Virus record (IMG/VR): IMGVR_UViG_3300044825_002605
Coordinates: 1-21,871 of that record
Origin: a virus
DNA: 21,871 nt
Direction: 5' to 3' (one strand)
Made by a program: the position numbers and the translations under genes
The notes under the pieces: model-generated
What the model was told of the DNA's origin: nothing
The model's input: only the letters and a program-made list of their open reading frames with translations
The model's database searches: none
Shown here: positions 2,244 through 20,104 of the stretch, piece by piece
Position numbering within the stretch: position 1 is the stretch's first letter
Layout: each line of letters starts with the position of its first letter

Positions 2244-2500
2244 CAGCGGCGGTGCCTCCACTCCCAGAACTCGCGCCACCAGCGCGCGTGCTCCTGGCGA
2301 CAGGTCTTCGGCATCAACTCCGCCGGCGGGTACCAGACGCCGTGCTCGTCGCCGCCGCGCTCGAGGTACATGCCGCAGCCGCAGCCGAACTCGACCCACG
2401 CGAACTCCGGCGTCGTCGTCATCTCCGGCCGGATCGCGACCTTCGTGATTCCGAAGTCGAACGCCCACAGCCGCTCCAGATCCGCGATGCGTGGCTTCAT
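2243..2500 (-). CDS. FDFGI/CGC...CxxxH paralog with N-terminal extension
   Basis: 85 residues from ATG 2500 (ATGA overlap; GGAGG close upstream). Twelve extra residues precede the FDFGI motif. It has FGCGCG (Cys 40/42), GVWYPP, and TCRQEH (Cys 67, His 71), then a Trp-rich basic tail (ARWWREFWEWRHRR). The W-x-P and CxxxH elements match the neighbours at 2037 and 5953. The tail could contact nucleic acid or membrane, but no function can be assigned. Confidence 0.83.
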   Translation of the reverse strand: MKPRIADLERLWAFDFGITKVAIRPEMTTTPEFAWVEFGCGCGMYLERGGDEHGVWYPPAELMPKTCRQEHARWWREFWEWRHRR

Positions 2501-2997
2501 TCGCCCCTCCGCAGGTTGGCGTGCCACCGGGCGTGGCTATGGCGGTCAACGACGAGCTTCCCGCACAGGTCGCAAGCAGTCTTGGTGCGGTTTCGTTCGC
2601 GCCAGCGGCGAGTTGATTCGATCTGGCACGTGCGACACCCCCGACCGCCGGGGATTGGCTTGTCGTACTCGTGGCCCTTTGGGCACGTCTTCTTCGCCGC
2701 ATTGTGTGCGCTGAATGAGGTGCCGCGAAGGATGTTCTCGCGCTCCGTGACAGGCTCAAGGTGTGACGGGTTCACGCAGTGAGGCACCCGACAGAGATGA
2801 TCAAGGACGAGTCCGTCAGGGATCGGCCCGACGACGTACTCGTACACCACCCGATGAACACCGAGTCTCTTCCCGCGATGCATCACTTGGCCGTATTCGG
2901 TGCGCGGGCTTCCCGTCCAAATCAGACATCCGCTCTCAGTGCGCTCCGTTCGCGCGACGACGCGCTCGTACACAGGGCGTAGCTCGTCGCGGCTCAT
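2497..2997 (-). CDS. HNH endonuclease with C-terminal zinc fingers
   Basis: 166 residues from ATG 2997 (ATGA overlap). Residues about 20-92 form an HNH_3-type nuclease: LIWTG, a VHR basic element, DH at 66/67 and CVNPSHLEPVTERENILRG with Asn 76 and His 79. Two Cys/His groups follow, CPKGHEYD...CRTC (Cys 105, 121, 124) and CDLCGKLVVDRHSHARWH (about 142-159), probably DNA-binding zinc knuckles. Free-standing HNH proteins in phages act as homing endonucleases or packaging-associated nickases. Its place inside a coupled early operon, far from the terminase, favours a homing or early role. The active-site residues look intact. Confidence 0.92.
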   Translation of the reverse strand: MSRDELRPVYERVVARTERTESGCLIWTGSPRTEYGQVMHRGKRLGVHRVVYEYVVGPIPDGLVLDHLCRVPHCVNPSHLEPVTERENILRGTSFSAHNAAKKTCPKGHEYDKPIPGGRGCRTCQIESTRRWRERNRTKTACDLCGKLVVDRHSHARWHANLRRGE

Positions 2998-3713: not shown

Positions 3714-4466
3714 TCATCCTTTCTTCGCTCCGCTGCGGGCGCGGATCTGGTCAAGCACGTCACTAAGCGCCAAGCTGGCTCGCGTGCCGATGTTGAACTT
3801 GGCGCGCTTGATCTCGACCAACTCGATGATGCGCTCCCGCTCCCGCGCGACCGCCGCGTCGATCCGCTGGTATTCGTCATCGCGGGCGCGGTCCAAATAG
3901 TCCGTGAGGGACTTTTCTGTTTGTCCACGCGTCGCGTCGATCTGCGCAAGTTGCGCACGAAGCCGTGCGATCTCGGGAAGCATCTTCAACGCAGCGCCGA
4001 CGGCGCTAGGCCCGAACCCGGCGTTCTCGAAGCAGCGGCATCTGCCGTTCGTCCTCATGCCGCCCTTGTTCGTCGCGAATCGGCACGAGTTGTCGCCGCA
4101 GTCCAAGATGACCTGCGCCTGCACGTCTGGCGCGGGCGTCGTGGTGTCGGGCGGCTGTAGCGGGCCGACCCAGCGGTCGAAGTCGGTTGGGTCGCACTCC
4201 ACCTCGGCCCCAGCGCACCAAACGCGCTTTGTTCCTCCCCGCGAGTCAGTGGTGAGTTGCACTACATTCCAGCCGTACTCGTCGTGCGCCCACCACCACC
4301 CGTCGCACGTCGGCGAGTCGTGGTGCTGCGCTTCCGGTTTCGGCACGCTGGCGATGATGGCGTCGAGTTGCTCGTCGTACAGCGCAATCCACACTTGCCC
4401 GTTCTCATTCATTACCTTGCGCGTCGCGATTGCGATTGCCCTCGCGTACTCGTCGATGGATGACAT
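3714..4466 (-). CDS. Hypothetical protein with Cys motif and coiled coil
   Basis: 250 residues from ATG 4466 (TAATG overlap). An N-terminal helical part (YARAIAIATRKVMNENG) is followed by a Trp-rich segment (CDGWWWAHDEYGW), then a Cys-rich stretch at about residues 132-156 (DCGDNSCRFATNKGG and RCRCF). The last third, about residues 165-235, is strongly helical and charged and should form a coiled coil (EIARLRAQLAQID, RERERIIELVEIKRAKF). The tail RARSGAKKG is shared with neighbouring genes. It is the longest unknown protein of the operon. No family recognised; a structural or scaffold-like early protein is possible. Confidence 0.78.
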   Translation of the reverse strand: MSSIDEYARAIAIATRKVMNENGQVWIALYDEQLDAIIASVPKPEAQHHDSPTCDGWWWAHDEYGWNVVQLTTDSRGGTKRVWCAGAEVECDPTDFDRWVGPLQPPDTTTPAPDVQAQVILDCGDNSCRFATNKGGMRTNGRCRCFENAGFGPSAVGAALKMLPEIARLRAQLAQIDATRGQTEKSLTDYLDRARDDEYQRIDAAVARERERIIELVEIKRAKFNIGTRASLALSDVLDQIRARSGAKKG

Positions 4467-4798
4467 TAGCGGTACCTCGGGTCGTGCGACTGGAATGCCT
4501 CGGGGCCGTCGTTCACCATCCGCATCTCGAAACGTCCCTCGAGCTCGGGGTGGTCCTTGACGAGCCGGCGGGCGAGATACGCGCGGTAGCTGTTGTTCAC
4601 CTTGAACTCGCCGCGCCACTTCACGTTCACCTCCCAGCGCACGCGCTCCGCGATCAGCGCGATGCCGAACTTTCCCGGCCGCGCGCGCGCCAACTCCAGG
4701 GCAAACCTGCTGAAGAGCTTGTAGCTCGCGGGGTTCTCCGCGATCCATCGCTCGGTCGCTTCGTGGAGGTCGTTGGGCCGCTTCACCTTACCGCCCAT
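4466..4798 (-). CDS. Conserved phage hypothetical (ERW...ENP family)
   Basis: 110 residues from ATG 4798. The pattern ERWIAENPASYKLFSRFALE, then RARPGKFGIALIAERVRWE, then KVNNSYRAYLARRL matches, from memory, a widespread family of small phage proteins with no assigned role, found mostly in early or replication regions. It is helical and basic, which would suit a DNA-associated protein, but no catalytic residues are obvious. It overlaps the upstream gene by 11 bases with a modest GGAAGG site. Intact length for this kind of protein. Confidence 0.82.
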   Translation of the reverse strand: MGGKVKRPNDLHEATERWIAENPASYKLFSRFALELARARPGKFGIALIAERVRWEVNVKWRGEFKVNNSYRAYLARRLVKDHPELEGRFEMRMVNDGPEAFQSHDPRYR

Positions 4799-5003
4799 CG
4801 CGCGGCCTTCCGAGAAGTTTCCCGATCTCCTCGATCAGTTGAAGGAGGCTCGCTCGCTCCCAACCCAGCGTCAAGATCATGTCGTGATCCGGCGTGCAGG
4901 CTTCCCACATCGCGATGCGCGCGTAGTTTTGCACGTAGCAACCGCACTTTAGGTCAACGACGTGGCTCGCGGTTGCGCGGACGATGCCGAAGTCGAACGT
5001 CAC
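4788..5003 (-). CDS. FDFGI/CGC...CxxxH paralog with helical tail
   Basis: 71 residues if started at GTG 5003, which overlaps the previous stop (GTGA) and gives MTFDFGI, matching the other family members; a GTG at 5006 adds one residue. CGC at Cys 20/22 and ACTPDH with Cys 36 and His 40 give the same CxC...CxxxH pairing as the genes at 2037 and 2243. A helical, amphipathic tail (ERASLLQLIEEIGKLLG) follows. Metal binding inferred; role unknown. Confidence 0.82.
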   Translation of the reverse strand: MTFDFGIVRATASHVVDLKCGCYVQNYARIAMWEACTPDHDMILTLGWERASLLQLIEEIGKLLGRPRDGR

Positions 5004-5311
5004 CACGTCAGGATCGTCCAGTGGCCGTCGATCTTGCAGTTCAGCGCGAGGAAGCGCGCGCGGTACGGCGGGTTCGGATTCTCCGGCGTGCCGTACAACG
5101 AGAAGTGGCAGAACGGCAGAAGCTCCGGGATGAGGTCCAAGTCGATCCTGCCGAATGCGTGCCGCAAGAACCGGCGCCGCGCGCGCGACTCGGGCGTCGC
5201 GTCGGGGCCGACGCGGTCGATGTTCTGGAACGCCGGCGGCCAGTCTGCCGCGATCGCAGCGGTCGTGGACGTCGAGAGCAGTAGCGCCAGTGCCAGCATC
5301 GTCGTTCTCAT
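5000..5311 (-). CDS. Secreted small protein with signal peptide
   Basis: 103 residues from ATG 5311 (ATGA overlap). The N-terminus MRTTMLALALLLSTSTTAA is a textbook signal peptide, with cleavage expected after AIAA at about residue 24, so the product is probably exported. There is no lipobox Cys. The mature part has two Cys (about residues 73 and 93), possibly a disulfide. It follows directly on a membrane-anchored protein (5308-5592), so the pair may act together at the cell envelope, for example in superinfection exclusion. That role is inference; no family recognised. Confidence 0.78.
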   Translation of the reverse strand: MRTTMLALALLLSTSTTAAIAADWPPAFQNIDRVGPDATPESRARRRFLRHAFGRIDLDLIPELLPFCHFSLYGTPENPNPPYRARFLALNCKIDGHWTILTW

Positions 5312-8736: not shown

Positions 8737-9014
8737 GCGGCCGGCGAAAGAAGGCGCTCGACGTCCTTCGTCGCGCGCTCATGGTCGGGACAGCGAAGGC
8801 ACGCGCGTTCCGGAAGTTCATCCGGCGGCAGCAGGAGAAGCCGCTCTCGCCGCGTCAGCTGAAGGTGGTCGACGCCTCGATGTGGCGCGCGAAGCGGTTC
8901 CGCGAGAAGGCGGACGAGTCGCGAAAGGCTCACCTCAAGCGTGTTCACGCCCGGATCAGTGGCAAGCCGGCCGATTGGCCGAAGATCAAATCGGCGGCGC
9001 TCGGTGAGGGCTGA
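8733..9014 (+). CDS. Small highly basic protein
   Basis: 93 residues from GTG 8733, overlapping the stop of the previous gene (GTGA). It is almost entirely helical and very rich in Arg and Lys (SGRRKKALDVLRRALM, KARAFRKFIRRQQEK, RAKRFREKADESRKAHLKRV). That composition suits a DNA- or RNA-binding protein, but no family is recognised. It lies between the putative regulator and the recombination ATPase, so a role in early gene control or recombination is possible. Confidence 0.75.
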   Translation: MSGRRKKALDVLRRALMVGTAKARAFRKFIRRQQEKPLSPRQLKVVDASMWRAKRFREKADESRKAHLKRVHARISGKPADWPKIKSAALGEG

Positions 9015-9074
9015 TTCCGGGCTCTGGGGTCCGGGCGCGACGCTCCTGGACGAAGAGCCGCCCATGGGTGAGAC

Positions 9075-9108
9075 GCGGGGCGCGGCCCCGCAGAAGGAGA
9101 CGAGGATG
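9075..9108 (+). promoter_or_regulatory. Hairpin plus AAGGAGACGAGG initiation cassette, copy 3
   Basis: GCGGGGC-GCG-GCCCCGC (9075-9091) is a perfect 7 bp stem with a 3-base loop. Two bases later comes AAGGAGACGAGG and the ATG of the ATPase gene. It has the same layout as the copies at 127-161 and 5590-5625 on the other strand, and fixes the start at 9106. No T-run follows the stem, so it is not a normal terminator. Confidence 0.6.
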
Positions 9109-10149
9109 ACGACACCATCACGACCCGCGCCGCGCGGCTTCGTTCCGCCAGGAGCGGCGGCGCCGGCGCCGAAGACGCGCCCGCGCCGCGTGACGCTCGA
9201 GACGGTGGTGCGCGGCCGGACGGTCAAGCCGCCGCGCATCACGATCTACGGCACCGAGGGTGCCGGCAAGACGACCGCCGCCAGCGAGGCGCCGAACCCC
9301 ATCTTCATCGGCGTCGAGGACGGCACCGGCCTGATCGACGTCGCGCGTTTCCCGCTGCCCGACGACGTAACGCTCGACGACATCCGCGACGCGGTCGCGG
9401 AGTTGACCGACAAGCCGCACGACTACAAGACGATCGTCCTCGACTCGCTCGACTGGATCGAACAGGTCGTCTGGCGTGACCTCTGCACCGAGGAGCGCGT
9501 GTCGTCGATCGAGAAGGTCGGGAAGGGCTACGGGAAGGGCTACACCGCGGCTTTCGAGCGGACCAAGGCGCTCGTCGCCGACCTCTCGCGCCTGCGCGAC
9601 AAGCGCGACATGACGATCGTGATGATCGCGCACGCACAGGTGAAAACGTTCTTGAATCCGGCCGGCGACGACTACGACCGCTACTCGCCGAAGCTGCACA
9701 AGGCGACGGCCGCGCTCTGGTGCGAGTGGTCCGACGTCGTCGGATTTCTCGATCAGGAGACGCTGGTCGTCGAGGACGAGGACACCGGCCGCGCGAAGGG
9801 GATCGCGACCGGCAAGCGCCTGCTGCACGTCACGCACGCCGGCGGCTGGTACGCGAAGAACCGCTACAGCATGGCGTCGCCGGTCGTTATGCAGCACGGT
9901 GCGATGTGGGACGCGATCAAGGCGGCGATCGACGCCGGCGTGCCGCGCGACCCGTCGGAGATCGGCGCGGCGATCGCGCGCACCGTGGAGTCGTACCCGG
10001 AGGTCGCGGCGGAGATCGCGAAGTACATCGAGTGGGCCGGGATGAATCCGGTGAGGCTCGAGCAGTTGCACCAGCGCGCGATCGCGCTGGTCGAGGCCGC
10101 GGCGAACGCCGCGCTGGAAGGACAGAAGGAGGCGAGCGATGTCGGATGA
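9106..10149 (+). CDS. Sak4-like RecA-fold ATPase (AAA_24 family)
   Basis: 347 residues. After a Pro/Ala/Arg-rich N-terminal 40 residues come a P-loop GTEGAGKTT at about 49-57, a Walker B strand KTIVLDSLDWIE near 108-119 and a second core strand TIVMIAHAQVK. This is the layout of phage nucleotide-binding proteins related to Sak4, RecA-like single-strand annealing or recombination ATPases. The C-terminal part (about 270-340) is helical. Downstream neighbours are a probable ssDNA-binding protein, a PD-(D/E)XK nuclease and RusA, a coherent recombination set. Sak4 proteins are known to act with a cognate SSB. All core motifs look intact. Confidence 0.88.
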   Translation: MTTPSRPAPRGFVPPGAAAPAPKTRPRRVTLETVVRGRTVKPPRITIYGTEGAGKTTAASEAPNPIFIGVEDGTGLIDVARFPLPDDVTLDDIRDAVAELTDKPHDYKTIVLDSLDWIEQVVWRDLCTEERVSSIEKVGKGYGKGYTAAFERTKALVADLSRLRDKRDMTIVMIAHAQVKTFLNPAGDDYDRYSPKLHKATAALWCEWSDVVGFLDQETLVVEDEDTGRAKGIATGKRLLHVTHAGGWYAKNRYSMASPVVMQHGAMWDAIKAAIDAGVPRDPSEIGAAIARTVESYPEVAAEIAKYIEWAGMNPVRLEQLHQRAIALVEAAANAALEGQKEASDVG

Positions 10150-11902: not shown

Positions 11903-12286
11903 GTGGAGACGAAGGAAGTCAGGATGTTGCCCGTCAAGCTGACGGCGGAGGAGCAGCGCGAGCGCGGCGTCGCGCTCTCGACGAAGCTCGGCGAGAAGCT
12001 GGACCTCGAGACGGCGCTGAAGGATCACAGCGACGGCGAGAAGACGAAGATCAAGAACGCCGAGAAGGAGGCGCTGCGCCTCTCGACCATCGTGCGTTCC
12101 GGCGAGGAGCCGCGCGAGGTGGAGTGCCGCTGGACGGCGGACTACGAGTCGTCGCAGATGGTCTGCTACCGCACGGACACCGGCGAGCAGATCGACTCGC
12201 GGCCGATGACGCTGAAGGAGCGGACTCGGAACCTCTTCCCGATCGACGGCGGGCGTGGCGCGGAAGCCAGCGACACCGCCGGCTGA
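11903..12286 (+). CDS. Conserved phage coiled-coil hypothetical
   Basis: 127 residues from GTG 11903, five bases after GGAGG; GTG 11897 and ATG 11924 are alternatives. Residues about 15-65 form a charged helix (EEQRERGVALSTKLGEKLD, KTKIKNAEKEALRLSTIVRSG), followed by a strand-rich part with VECRW, then YRTDTGEQIDSRPMT. This helix plus [R/A]DTGE layout recalls small phage proteins found next to recombination genes, with no known function. It overlaps the resolvase gene by 32 bases, so the two are co-expressed. Confidence 0.78.
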   Translation: METKEVRMLPVKLTAEEQRERGVALSTKLGEKLDLETALKDHSDGEKTKIKNAEKEALRLSTIVRSGEEPREVECRWTADYESSQMVCYRTDTGEQIDSRPMTLKERTRNLFPIDGGRGAEASDTAG

Positions 12287-12662
12287 TCTTCCCGTCCCGC
12301 TGCGCCTCGTCCTGGAGGGGGCTCCGCGGACGAAGAAGAACAGCCCGGACATCATCCGGGTGCGCGGGCGCCGGATGGTGATTCCGAGCCGCGCGTTCCG
12401 CGCCTACGAGGAAGCGTGCCTGTGGCAGCTTCGCTCTTGGCGGCGCGAGCCCATCGACGGCTGGGTCGCCTGCGCCGCGGTCTTCTATCGGGACCGCGAC
12501 GTGGGCGATCTGAACAACTACACGTCGGCGCTCGCCGACATCTTGGAGAAGGCCCGCGTCCTGACGAACGACCGGCTGATCCGAAGCTGGGACGGGTCGC
12601 GGCTCGAGAAGGATGCCGCACGCCCGCGCGTCGAAGTGCTACTCTCGCGCTTCGATGGCTAA
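12255..12662 (+). CDS. rusA: RusA-family Holliday junction resolvase
   Basis: 135 residues from GTG 12255. The core has GAPRTKKNSP near residues 22-31 and the catalytic region RDVGDLNNYTSALADILEKA, with Asp 85, Asn 87 and Asp 95, then Asp 106 in LTNDRLI. These are the metal-binding acidic residues of RusA, a dimeric, Mg-dependent endonuclease that cuts four-way junctions symmetrically. In phages it resolves branches before packaging. It closes the recombination set and sits directly before the terminase genes. Length and motifs are normal; only the exact start is uncertain because no good ribosome site is seen. Confidence 0.92.
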   Translation: MARKPATPPADLPVPLRLVLEGAPRTKKNSPDIIRVRGRRMVIPSRAFRAYEEACLWQLRSWRREPIDGWVACAAVFYRDRDVGDLNNYTSALADILEKARVLTNDRLIRSWDGSRLEKDAARPRVEVLLSRFDG

Positions 12663-17641: not shown

Positions 17642-18685
17642 ATGGCGTTTCCGAGGGGTGAGGAGCCGACTCTCGACGAGCTTCGGGAGTCGAGCGGATT
17701 CGATGCGGGGGTGGGGGGCGACGACGAGTCGTCGGATGGGGATTTCGGCGGCGGAGGTGGGGAGCTTCCGTCCGCCGATTTCCCCGTCGCGGACTCGGGC
17801 GGCGAGCAGCAGGGCGGAGCGCGCAAGGAGGACTTGACGCTCGCCGTCCGGCAGTACCGCGACGAGCTCAAGCAGTTGAAGGCGGCGCGCGACATGGACA
17901 CGGCCGAGCTTCGCGAGCTTCGCCAGTGGCGCGCCGAGGTGCAGTCGGCGATCCGCGAGCAGCGCGCGGAGGAGGCCCGGCGCGCACAGGAGGCGGCGAA
18001 AAACGCCGATCCGGAGCCGGACCCGATCCTCGAGCCGGACAAGCACGAGGAGTGGAAGGCGCGGCGCGAGCAGGCGCGTTTCGAGGAGGTGAACCAGAAC
18101 CTCCAGCAGACGCAGCGCGCTGTTCAGGAGCAGCGCCAGATGCTCCTCGCGCAGACGATCGAGAACTCGGTGCGCGACTCGATCACGAACTTCTCCCGGA
18201 CGAAGCCCGACTACGACGCGGCGTACAACTTCCTCGTCGAGAACGTGGCGAACGGTTTCCGGCGGATGGGCTACTCCGACCCGGAAATCTTCGGCGAGGG
18301 CGGCAAGCTCTACCAGGAGCGCGACCGTCTCTTCCGGCAGATCATCGAGATCCATCCGAGCGGCGCGTGGCGCTGGGCGCAGGACCCGGCCGCGGCGCTC
18401 TACAACGCGGCCGTCCAGTACGGCTGGAACGCGGCGGCGCAGCCGGGGGCGACCCAACCCGCCAACGGGCGCCGTCCCGCGAACGCGCAGAGGCGACCGG
18501 CCCGCGACCCGGCGGCGCTCGAGCGCGCAGCGGCGGCGGCGGCTGGCGCGGGTGGCGGCGCCACCACCGCCGGCGAACAACTCACCGCCGAGAAGCTGCT
18601 GAACATGAGCCCGCGCGAGCGCGCGTGGCTGGAGCACACGCGCCCGGACCTCGTCGAGCGCATTCTGGAGTCCGTGTCGAGGTAG
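17642..18685 (+). CDS. Probable capsid scaffolding protein
   Basis: 347 residues from ATG 17642 behind GAGGTGAGG. An acidic, Gly-rich first 60 residues is followed by a long charged coiled coil at about 62-180 (LTLAVRQYRDELKQLKAARD, QARFEEVNQNLQQTQRAVQE), then a folded part with DYDAAYNFLVENVANGFRRM, an Ala/Gly/Arg linker and a helical end (LLNMSPRERAWLEHTRPDL). Size, composition, helical nature and position between portal and capsid are what scaffolds show. It would guide prohead assembly and then leave. No protease domain is visible. Sequence alone does not prove the role. Confidence 0.75.
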   Translation: MAFPRGEEPTLDELRESSGFDAGVGGDDESSDGDFGGGGGELPSADFPVADSGGEQQGGARKEDLTLAVRQYRDELKQLKAARDMDTAELRELRQWRAEVQSAIREQRAEEARRAQEAAKNADPEPDPILEPDKHEEWKARREQARFEEVNQNLQQTQRAVQEQRQMLLAQTIENSVRDSITNFSRTKPDYDAAYNFLVENVANGFRRMGYSDPEIFGEGGKLYQERDRLFRQIIEIHPSGAWRWAQDPAAALYNAAVQYGWNAAAQPGATQPANGRRPANAQRRPARDPAALERAAAAAAGAGGGATTAGEQLTAEKLLNMSPRERAWLEHTRPDLVERILESVSR

Positions 18686-18696
18686 TTCGCTCTTGA

Positions 18697-18991
18697 CCTG
18701 ACGACGACTTTTCGTCATCAGGAGAATCGAAGGGTAGTCCTTCTACGGGGTTTGCAGGAGCCTCGTAGAGCTTGGCGGTCCCGCAAGGGACCGCGAGGCT
18801 CACCGCCGACGCCGGGGGCGCAATTCCGGTGGGGCGAAAGCCCGTCGCGCATGGGTGAGCGCGGATCTGACCCACGCAGGGGCAGCACGTAACGCTGCGA
18901 GCCGCATCCGGGCTGCGAAATCGGATGGCTCCCACGGGAGCGCGCCTCCTCGAGCGTAACGAGGGCAACCGTCAGAAGTTGTCTTTGACAA
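18697..18991 (+). ncRNA. Hairpin-rich structured leader of the capsid gene
   Basis: The 324-base gap 18686-19009 has no gene but at least nine stem-loops: 18697-18722 (10 bp, one mismatch), 18729-18743, an 8 bp stem GCGGTCCC/GGGACCGC with GCAA loop (18775-18794) inside GAGCCTC/GAGGCTC (18758-18801), GGC-GAAA-GCC (18833-18842) inside CGACG/CGTCG (18807-18847), 18852-18874, GCAGC/GCTGC (18882-18898), CATCCG/CGGATG (18905-18927), GCTCC-CACG-GGAGC (18928-18941, one base shared arrangement), CCTCG/CGAGG (18948-18964) and TTGTC-TTT-GACAA (18979-18991). Two loops share CGTAACG. Two loops are GNRA tetraloops. It ends at the capsid ribosome site. No known RNA family recognised. Confidence 0.6.
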
Positions 18992-19009
18992 ACGCACGAG
19001 GAGGTAATC

Positions 19010-20104
19010 GTGGCAGCTACCGTAATCACGCGCGAGCACGCGCTTGCAGTCCGTCTCTGGGCGCAGAGCCTCGACGTTCAGGCTCTCCACAACACCGAGG
19101 CCGACAAGCTCGTCGGCGAGGGTCCCGCGTCGATCGTTCGTCTCCGTGACGAGCTCACGAAGGGCGCCGGTGATCGTCTCACCATCGGCTTCCGCGGCCA
19201 GCTGACCGGCGACGGTCAGATCGGCAACGCGACGCTCGAGGGCAACGAGGAGGATCTGACCCTCTACGCCGACGACGTCTACATCGACAACTCGCGGCAC
19301 GCCGTCGGCATCAAGGGCGTCATGTCGCAGCAGCGCACGCTGTTCGACCTCCGCAAGGAGGGCAAGAGCGGCCTCGTCGATCACTGGCGCCGGAAGTTCG
19401 ACATCGGCCTCATCAATCAACTCGCGGGCAACACCGCGCAGACCGATCGTCGCTGGACCGCGAACAACGCGGTTCGCACGCCGACGACCCGCATCTACGC
19501 GAACGGCGCGACCTCGGCGACGTCGCTCATCGACACCAACTTCCGCTTCTCGCTCGATATGATCGACAAGGCCGTCTACACGGCCGAGACGATGGAAGTG
19601 CCGATCCGCAAGGCGGACCTCGGTGGCGGCATGGAGGGCTACTGCGTCCTCATCCATCCGGCGCAGTTGCTTGACATGCGCCTGGACATGAGCGAGGGCC
19701 AGTGGAACGACATCCAGCGCGCCGCGATGATGGGTGGCGAGATCAGCAAGAACCCGATCTTCACGGGCGCGGCTGGCTACCACAACAACACCGTCATCCG
19801 CGTCGATCCGCGCGTTTGTTGGGGCAACGACACCCAGCTCAATCGCATTCACAAGACGTCCCTCGGTGCGGCCGCAGCGGGTACGACCAACGTCGCGCGC
19901 GGCATCTTCATGGGCGCGGGCGCCGGCGCGATCGCGTTCGGCCGCGCGGGCAGCATGGAAAAATTCCGCTGGGAGGAGATCCTGCGCGACTACTCCGACT
20001 TCTACGGCGTCGCCGCGGGCTGCGTCTGGGGCGCGTCGAAGATCCAGTACAACGGCACCGACTACGGGGTCATCACCCTCGAGTCGTACTCGCCCGGCGT
20101 CTGA
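19010..20104 (+). CDS. Major capsid protein, N4-gp56 (DUF4043) family
   Basis: 364 residues from GTG 19010 with a perfect AGGAGGT five bases upstream, as expected for the most abundant protein. Family hallmarks are plain: GAGDRLTIGFRGQLTGDG, NATLEGNEEDLTLYADD, VYIDNSRHAVGIKGVMSQQR and TLFDLRKEGKSGLVDHW in order at about residues 50-125, then a domain with YCVLIHPAQLLDMRLD and the end FYGVAAGCVWGASKI. It builds the head shell by the HK97-like fold. The preceding leader is strongly structured and may control its high output. Length is normal for the family and no truncation is seen. Confidence 0.94.
   Translation: MAATVITREHALAVRLWAQSLDVQALHNTEADKLVGEGPASIVRLRDELTKGAGDRLTIGFRGQLTGDGQIGNATLEGNEEDLTLYADDVYIDNSRHAVGIKGVMSQQRTLFDLRKEGKSGLVDHWRRKFDIGLINQLAGNTAQTDRRWTANNAVRTPTTRIYANGATSATSLIDTNFRFSLDMIDKAVYTAETMEVPIRKADLGGGMEGYCVLIHPAQLLDMRLDMSEGQWNDIQRAAMMGGEISKNPIFTGAAGYHNNTVIRVDPRVCWGNDTQLNRIHKTSLGAAAAGTTNVARGIFMGAGAGAIAFGRAGSMEKFRWEEILRDYSDFYGVAAGCVWGASKIQYNGTDYGVITLESYSPGV

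Follow-up and report, generated by a model that had tools for sequence, protein, structure and literature searches.

The leader of the capsid gene and its surroundings

Tailed phages need hundreds of capsid subunits and few portals from adjacent genes, a difference which has mostly been explained by promoters. The locus described here raises the question of what a long and densely structured gap directly before a capsid gene might do. The window, i.e., the whole 21,871-nt stretch that was analysed, derives from a 21.9-kb virus contig, and its phage has a P22-like portal. The major capsid protein gene (19010-20104, plus strand) begins with GTG at 19010, and its product matches the profiles PF13252 (Phage_capsid_3, N4-gp56 family) and phrog_334 (major head protein). 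Between this gene and the scaffold-like gene upstream (17642-18685), the open reading frame coordinates leave a capsid mRNA leader of 324 nt (18686-19009, plus strand), running from the scaffold stop to the capsid start. The 3' end of the gap carries AGGAGG at 18999-19004, so that the leader ends at the capsid ribosome site, as the preliminary description of the DNA had stated. Neither a terminator nor a sigma-70 promoter was found in the gap, and no tRNA or tmRNA was found. The window also contains, by profile matches, a Sak4-like ssDNA annealing protein (8941-10149), a RusA resolvase (12255-12662) and an HNH_3 endonuclease (2497-2997, minus strand), all of which are expected in a podovirus early region.

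Nested folding and the 5' domain

The preliminary description had reported some ten stem-loops in the gap and had proposed a comparison with shuffled sequence. The minimum free energy (MFE) of 18680-19010 was -171 kcal/mol, compared with -134.7 ± 5.3 kcal/mol for dinucleotide shuffles (z -6.8, 0/100), and the leader folds beyond shuffled sequence with a z of about -7 (-6.8 to -7.0). For 18697-18991, z was -6.0 on the plus strand and -4.1 on the minus strand, while the z of 40 background segments of 295 nt from the window averaged -1.2 and never fell below -2.9; since the background folds far less well, the stem-loop observation is real, and about ten hairpins do appear in the MFE structure of the 324-nt gap. 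All of the excess nested folding comes from 18697-18800 (z -6.7), and the nested hairpins of the 3' half are at chance level (z -0.1 for 18800-18900 and -0.7 for 18900-18991).

The 5' domain consists, in the MFE structure, of four plus-strand hairpins: hairpin a (CCUGA.CGACG-loop, 18697-18722), hairpin b (GAAGG GUAGU CCUUC, 18729-18743), hairpin c (UACGGGGUUU GCAG GAGCCUCGUA, 18744-18767) and hairpin d (18768-18801), which holds the previously noted 8-bp stem capped by GCAA at 18775-18794. An exact scan of IMG/VR found no copy of the 21-nt core of hairpin d with its GCAA stem. A GAAA-capped stem had also been described; GGGC-GAAA-GCCC is present in the sequence (18832-18843) but missing from the MFE structure. 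Moreover, a switch had been suggested between hairpin b and an alternative pairing of 18741-18747 with 18764-18770. The two elements overlap by three bases only, and the MFE structure holds both hairpin b and most of the alternative (18744-18767); the switch at 18741-18770 was therefore rejected, the two elements being nearly compatible.

A tandem pseudoknot array in related leaders

Single-sequence searches yielded few relatives. With alignments of the capsid protein, two IMG/VR scans gave 80 loci each, many contigs being shared between them, and bacterial and archaeal genome assemblies added 13 loci, besides cultured phages. The best capsid identity to the window was about 47%, and no close copy of the window leader is therefore known; a blastn search of phages for near-identical leaders gave one 30-nt chance match only. 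In most relatives, the gap before the capsid gene measures roughly 100-360 nt. Inspection of these gaps revealed a repeated unit, UUCGNN-(0-3 nt)-[S2 5']-NNCG-UNA(A)-[S2 3']; its CGNN pairs with NNCG within the S2 hairpin loop, forming a compact H-type pseudoknot. ViennaRNA computes nested folds only, and H-type pseudoknots are invisible to it. The nested folds of leaders L004 and L007 were at chance level and those of L009 and L010 moderately better, and an apparent refutation based on these poor folds was overturned once the pseudoknots were recognised.

A strict scan detected 39 canonical units in 70 leaders, compared with a mean of 0.95 in shuffles. The pattern had been derived from some of those 70 leaders; repeated unchanged on 44 unused leaders, it found 24 units, compared with 0.88 in shuffles (maximum 4 in 100 shuffles). 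A general scan for H-type units, counting just those which beat the nested fold of their own segment, gave 305 units in 109 distinct leaders, with 98 expected; the leaders share ancestry, an effect that shuffling leaves in place, and leader starts were called automatically. Most leaders carry two to five units, the end of which lies at a median of 82 nt upstream of the start codon. Per 100 nt, leaders showed a pseudoknot gain of 4.45, compared with 2.25 for their minus strand; random segments taken from the same loci reached 1.27 and intergenic gaps elsewhere 1.30, and 83 of the 109 leaders surpassed every one of their own background segments. The array is thus strand-specific and does not occur in the other gaps of these contigs. 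In L024 and L030, a strong canonical unit (CGUC..GACG UUACU) was also observed about 1100 and 1105 nt upstream of the capsid start, respectively, where it probably sits in the pre-scaffold gap; because of this unit some 1.1 kb upstream, the element may not be strictly limited to capsid leaders in that clade.

Covariation

The preliminary description had named covariation in homologous leaders as a check. Covariation is present, but it lies in tandem H-type pseudoknots and not in simple stem-loops. In five orthologous leaders (L018, L024, L030, L136 and L141), four of the five S2 pairs of the first unit show compensatory changes, while S1 of the same unit is constant. S1 was assessed by a blind test, in which units were picked by S2 and the flanking CG...CGUNR with the two inner S1 pairs ignored; both inner pairs form in 28/55 units, compared with 10.5 when partners were reshuffled (0/5000), and the 28 units use 14 different combinations of inner pairs. 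A MAFFT alignment of group L020/L021 was partly usable for covariation, the unit lengths being different.

Pseudoknot units in the window

For the window, the pseudoknot gain of 18797-18966 was 21.5, compared with 3.7 ± 2.9 in shuffles (0/500), and under a stiffer penalty it was 13.5, compared with 1.0 ± 1.6; the same scan found no gain in the 5' part of the leader. These values come from a crude model, in which Turner stacks are summed and a constant penalty is added. It is well supported that the 3' half of the leader (18800-18991) fits a tandem array of compact H-type pseudoknots and not nested hairpins. The strict scan, which requires CGUNA and a 4-bp S1 starting with CG, found no unit in the window, and the window units come from the general scan.

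Four candidate units were found on the plus strand. PK1 (18804-18831), a canonical family unit with L3 CAAU, combines S1 CGCC/GGCG (18804-18807 with 18817-18820) and S2 CGCCGGG/TCCGGTG (18810-18816 with 18825-18831), and its nested rival pairs CGCC with 18833-18836. PK2 (18841-18863; general H-type scan) has S1 CCCG(U)/(A)UGGG, S2 CGCGC/GCGCG (18846-18850 with 18859-18863) and L3 UGA, and likewise competes with the nested fold. PK3 (18900-18927) is formed by S1 AGCC/GGCU (18900-18903 with 18911-18914) and S2 CAUCCG/CGGAUG (18905-18910 with 18922-18927). Among the pseudoknots of the window, it is the only one with alignable relatives; its homologous units occur in L033, L036 and L055, which belong to the same supported 11-row clade of the capsid tree as the window, and show one compensatory pair. 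As no close homologue of the window leader was found, base-level covariation in the window amounts to this one PK3 pair. PK4 (18936-18957), from the general scan, consists of S1 GGGAG/CUCCU (18936-18940 with 18946-18950) and S2 GCGC/GCGU (18942-18945 with 18954-18957).

Two plus-strand hairpins accompany these units, GCAGC-ACGUAAC-GCUGC (18882-18898), which bears a CGUAA loop with the NNCGUNA signature, and CCUCG-AGCGUAA-CGAGG (18948-18964), also with a CGUAA loop. They contain the two loops sharing CGTAACG (18887-18893 and 18953-18959) that had been suggested to pair with each other or to bind a common partner. The loops are real, but since they match the family-wide CGUNA loop signature, their mutual pairing is needless; both are S2-type hairpins with a CGUNA loop, for which the canonical S1 partner is not clear. 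When each knot is charged a constant 7 kcal/mol, PK1 alone improves on the full nested fold, and the other pseudoknots of the window are within a few kcal/mol of the nested fold, or worse, so that the full nested fold is comparable to or better than most pseudoknot combinations. The leader has two parts: the stable nested hairpins of its 5' domain are particular to this phage, and the tandem H-type pseudoknots of its 3' domain extend across the capsid family.

Complementarity to the ribosome-binding site

In the window, an anti-Shine-Dalgarno strand, GCCUCCUCG (18944-18952, plus strand; p about 0.02-0.04), can pair with the ribosome-binding site CGAGGAGGU (18997-19005, plus strand), in which the Shine-Dalgarno (SD) sequence lies. 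The MFE structure contains this helix between GCCTCCTCG and CGAGGAGGT, which masks the SD; within the nested ensemble the site is paired with a probability of about 1, and opening it costs about 15 kcal/mol under the nested model. Such complementarity is also found across the family. When the bodies of 106 leaders were compared with their own last 24 nt, the best complementarity summed to 1758, compared with 1581 ± 24 for composition-matched shuffles (0/200), an excess of 7 sd, and with 1575 ± 24 for swapped tails (0/5000). The window ranks in the top six leaders by tail swaps, with p 0.02 by shuffles. Strong cases include L150 (11 bp), L084 (12 bp), L159 (13 bp), L087, L047 and L176; in L159, the strongest, a 13-nt perfect inverted repeat (CCTGCGCAAAGGG / CCCTTTGCGCAGG) joins the leader to the ribosome site. 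As strong anti-SD pairing occurs in only about 15% of leaders, masking by this strand may not be the general mechanism.

In 11 of the 14 strong cases the anti-SD strand overlaps a pseudoknot unit, and units cover 23% of leader length. The anti-SD strand of the window likewise shares bases with PK4 and with the hairpin at 18948-18964, and the SD-masked and SD-free folds are therefore mutually exclusive. PK4, this hairpin and the anti-SD helix also exclude one another, the hairpin being an alternative to both.

Distribution of the array and the CsrA-like gene

A significant array was detected by the shuffle test in 78/122 leaders, including 37/45 of those with nearer capsid proteins and 5/18 of the most distant. 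On the capsid tree the array label is clustered (24 changes, compared with 36 in shuffles), and the array therefore tends to accompany the capsid gene. Phages of the group formed by Lessievirus, Lastavirus, Pavtokvirus and Skulduggeryvirus are without the array; in these, a CsrA-like gene lies immediately upstream of the capsid gene. At L091-L094 (Skulduggery, Klebsiella phage ZX1, BcepMigl and PEp14) this gene is small and directly precedes the capsid gene; that of L093 matches PF02599, and none of the other loci had a CsrA-like gene within the stretch that was retrieved. This distribution is suggestive of two solutions to one control problem. Like the array, the CsrA-like gene belongs to the same capsid family, occupies the same position and could potentially control the capsid at the RNA level; unlike the array, it is a protein gene and not an RNA, with a role predicted by annotation. 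It has been called a moron gene (PMC9144972), but it may rather be a local regulator of capsid translation.

Free-standing HNH endonuclease genes also lie between scaffold and capsid in Rhizobium phage RHph_Y1_10 (L009, 4298-4873, plus strand) and Paracoccus phage KLEP18-1 (L010, 4190-4768, minus strand), and the gap between these genes is therefore a repeated insertion site. A comparable insertion site is that of segG, which adjoins T4 gene 32. In addition, the capsid gene of L008 (MW202512.1, ctDrO704) is split, about 34 codons into the gene, by an insert of roughly 600 nt (4291-5020); the insert holds an endonuclease gene annotated 'icea', its flanks resemble a group I intron, and the annotation places the capsid protein start late.

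Possible functions of the leader

The leader is most likely a cis-acting translational control element of the capsid mRNA, to which we assign a probability of roughly one half. The capsid leaders, that of the window included, have a conserved array and contain a stretch complementary to the ribosome site of the same leader; because this complementarity exceeds chance both in the family and in the window, translation control is the best supported of the roles offered in the preliminary description. In an off or low state, the anti-SD strand would mask the SD, whereas in an on state the last pseudoknot or its CGUAA hairpin would capture that strand and free the SD. The array might then serve as a sensor or as a platform for protein binding, and candidate triggers are a phage protein (capsid or scaffold) and a host factor, though co-transcriptional folding might also suffice. 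The alternation between a masked and a free SD, together with its trigger, is what we infer from these competing folds.

A possible but clearly less probable explanation is that the leader acts on mRNA stability or processing, with knots and hairpins either shielding the capsid portion of a late polycistronic transcript against ribonucleases or marking a cleavage site; this would raise capsid levels over those of portal and scaffold, and translation control would be secondary. The constant location of the leader, with low-copy genes (portal, scaffold) before it and the high-copy capsid gene after it, the great stability of the 5' domain (z -6.7) and the lack of a detected terminator or sigma-70 promoter in the gap agree with this explanation, and knot arrays that conserve no sequence would suit a mechanical barrier; however, it leaves the excess complementarity to the own ribosome site and the conserved CGUNA loop unexplained. 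An autogenous operator, in which the array would nucleate a phage protein (capsid, scaffold or another) that spreads over the ribosome site, so that the protein and not the anti-SD strand does the masking, appears rather unlikely. Repeated units with a conserved CGUNA loop and UUCG linker would suit repeated protein binding, the leaders of T4 and RB69 gene 32 offer a pseudoknot precedent (PMC535899), and the relatives without the array carry a gene for a CsrA-like RNA-binding protein beside the capsid gene. Against such predicted binding, unit sequences vary between and within leaders, and no RNA-binding phage protein was identified in the window.

It is very improbable that the gap houses an independent ncRNA acting in trans, or an element working at the DNA level, such as a recombination or packaging site, lying before the capsid gene by coincidence. 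The HNH endonuclease genes in this gap of relatives do mark it as an insertion site, but the array is linked to the capsid gene throughout the tree and was not found in other gaps of the contigs, which also speaks against the new ncRNA proposed earlier, as do its strand specificity, G-U pairs and RNA-type loop lengths against an element of the DNA. As to composition, high GC makes any sequence fold, and the nested z of the 3' half is near zero; nevertheless, none of the controls (dinucleotide shuffles, background segments, other gaps and the minus strand) reproduces the array, and the held-out test refutes chance folding of a GC-rich gap, the probability of which is negligible.

Beyond translational control in the window itself, we propose more tentatively that UUCGNN..NNCGUNA pseudoknot arrays before PF13252 capsid genes could form a new and widespread class of phage RNA, acting as a gated switch of capsid translation in which the last knot competes with the anti-SD strand, and whose role elsewhere is perhaps taken by the CsrA-like protein. 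If so, an RNA array fixed to the capsid gene would provide many environmental podoviruses with a direct post-transcriptional answer to the unequal demand for portal and capsid. Cultured carriers include Microcystis phage Mae-JY35, Paracoccus phage vB_PmaP_KLEP18-1 and probably Rhizobium phage RHph_Y1_10. The array family would also represent a large natural set of minimal pseudoknots, missed by nested-only folding and by present RNA family libraries.

Comparison with known systems

At the gathering score, Rfam 15 gave no match in the window and none in 19 relatives; at a permissive score, cmscan gave no credible match, with STAXI not among the matches, and no riboswitch or thermometer of Rfam matched. 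A search of the open-access literature found no pseudoknot array in capsid leaders. The nearest described architecture is STAXI (RF01728), a pseudoknot of bacteria and mobile elements which has been reported as two to three tandem copies; it adjoins ssb, topoisomerase, antirestriction and integrase genes, and its tetraloops are often UUCG (PMC2864571). The capsid array shares the tandem pseudoknots, with two to five units in most leaders; unlike in STAXI, its UUCG is a linker before S1, its loop is CGUNA, and it lies directly before the capsid gene and not near the genes that STAXI adjoins. Membership in STAXI was rejected, as the gene context differs and the RF01728 model was negative in all 14 records, the window included, at E<=10.

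The nearest function is that of the T4 gene 32 operator. In the gene 32 leaders of T4 and RB69, an H-type pseudoknot is followed by a less structured stretch and then by the ribosome site, and serves translational repression (PMC535899). T4 gp32 nucleates on its own mRNA and spreads over the ribosome site. In both systems, a phage gene has an H-type pseudoknot 5' of its ribosome site, but the capsid leaders have an array and not a single pseudoknot, the gene is different, and the T4 operator has a known protein ligand. The capsid leader also resembles riboregulators that sequester the ribosome-binding site, such as riboswitches and RNA thermometers, in that its anti-SD strand pairs either with the SD or within another fold; as in an SD-masking switch, the complementarity of this strand to the SD exceeds chance, and the same strand takes part in a competing fold.
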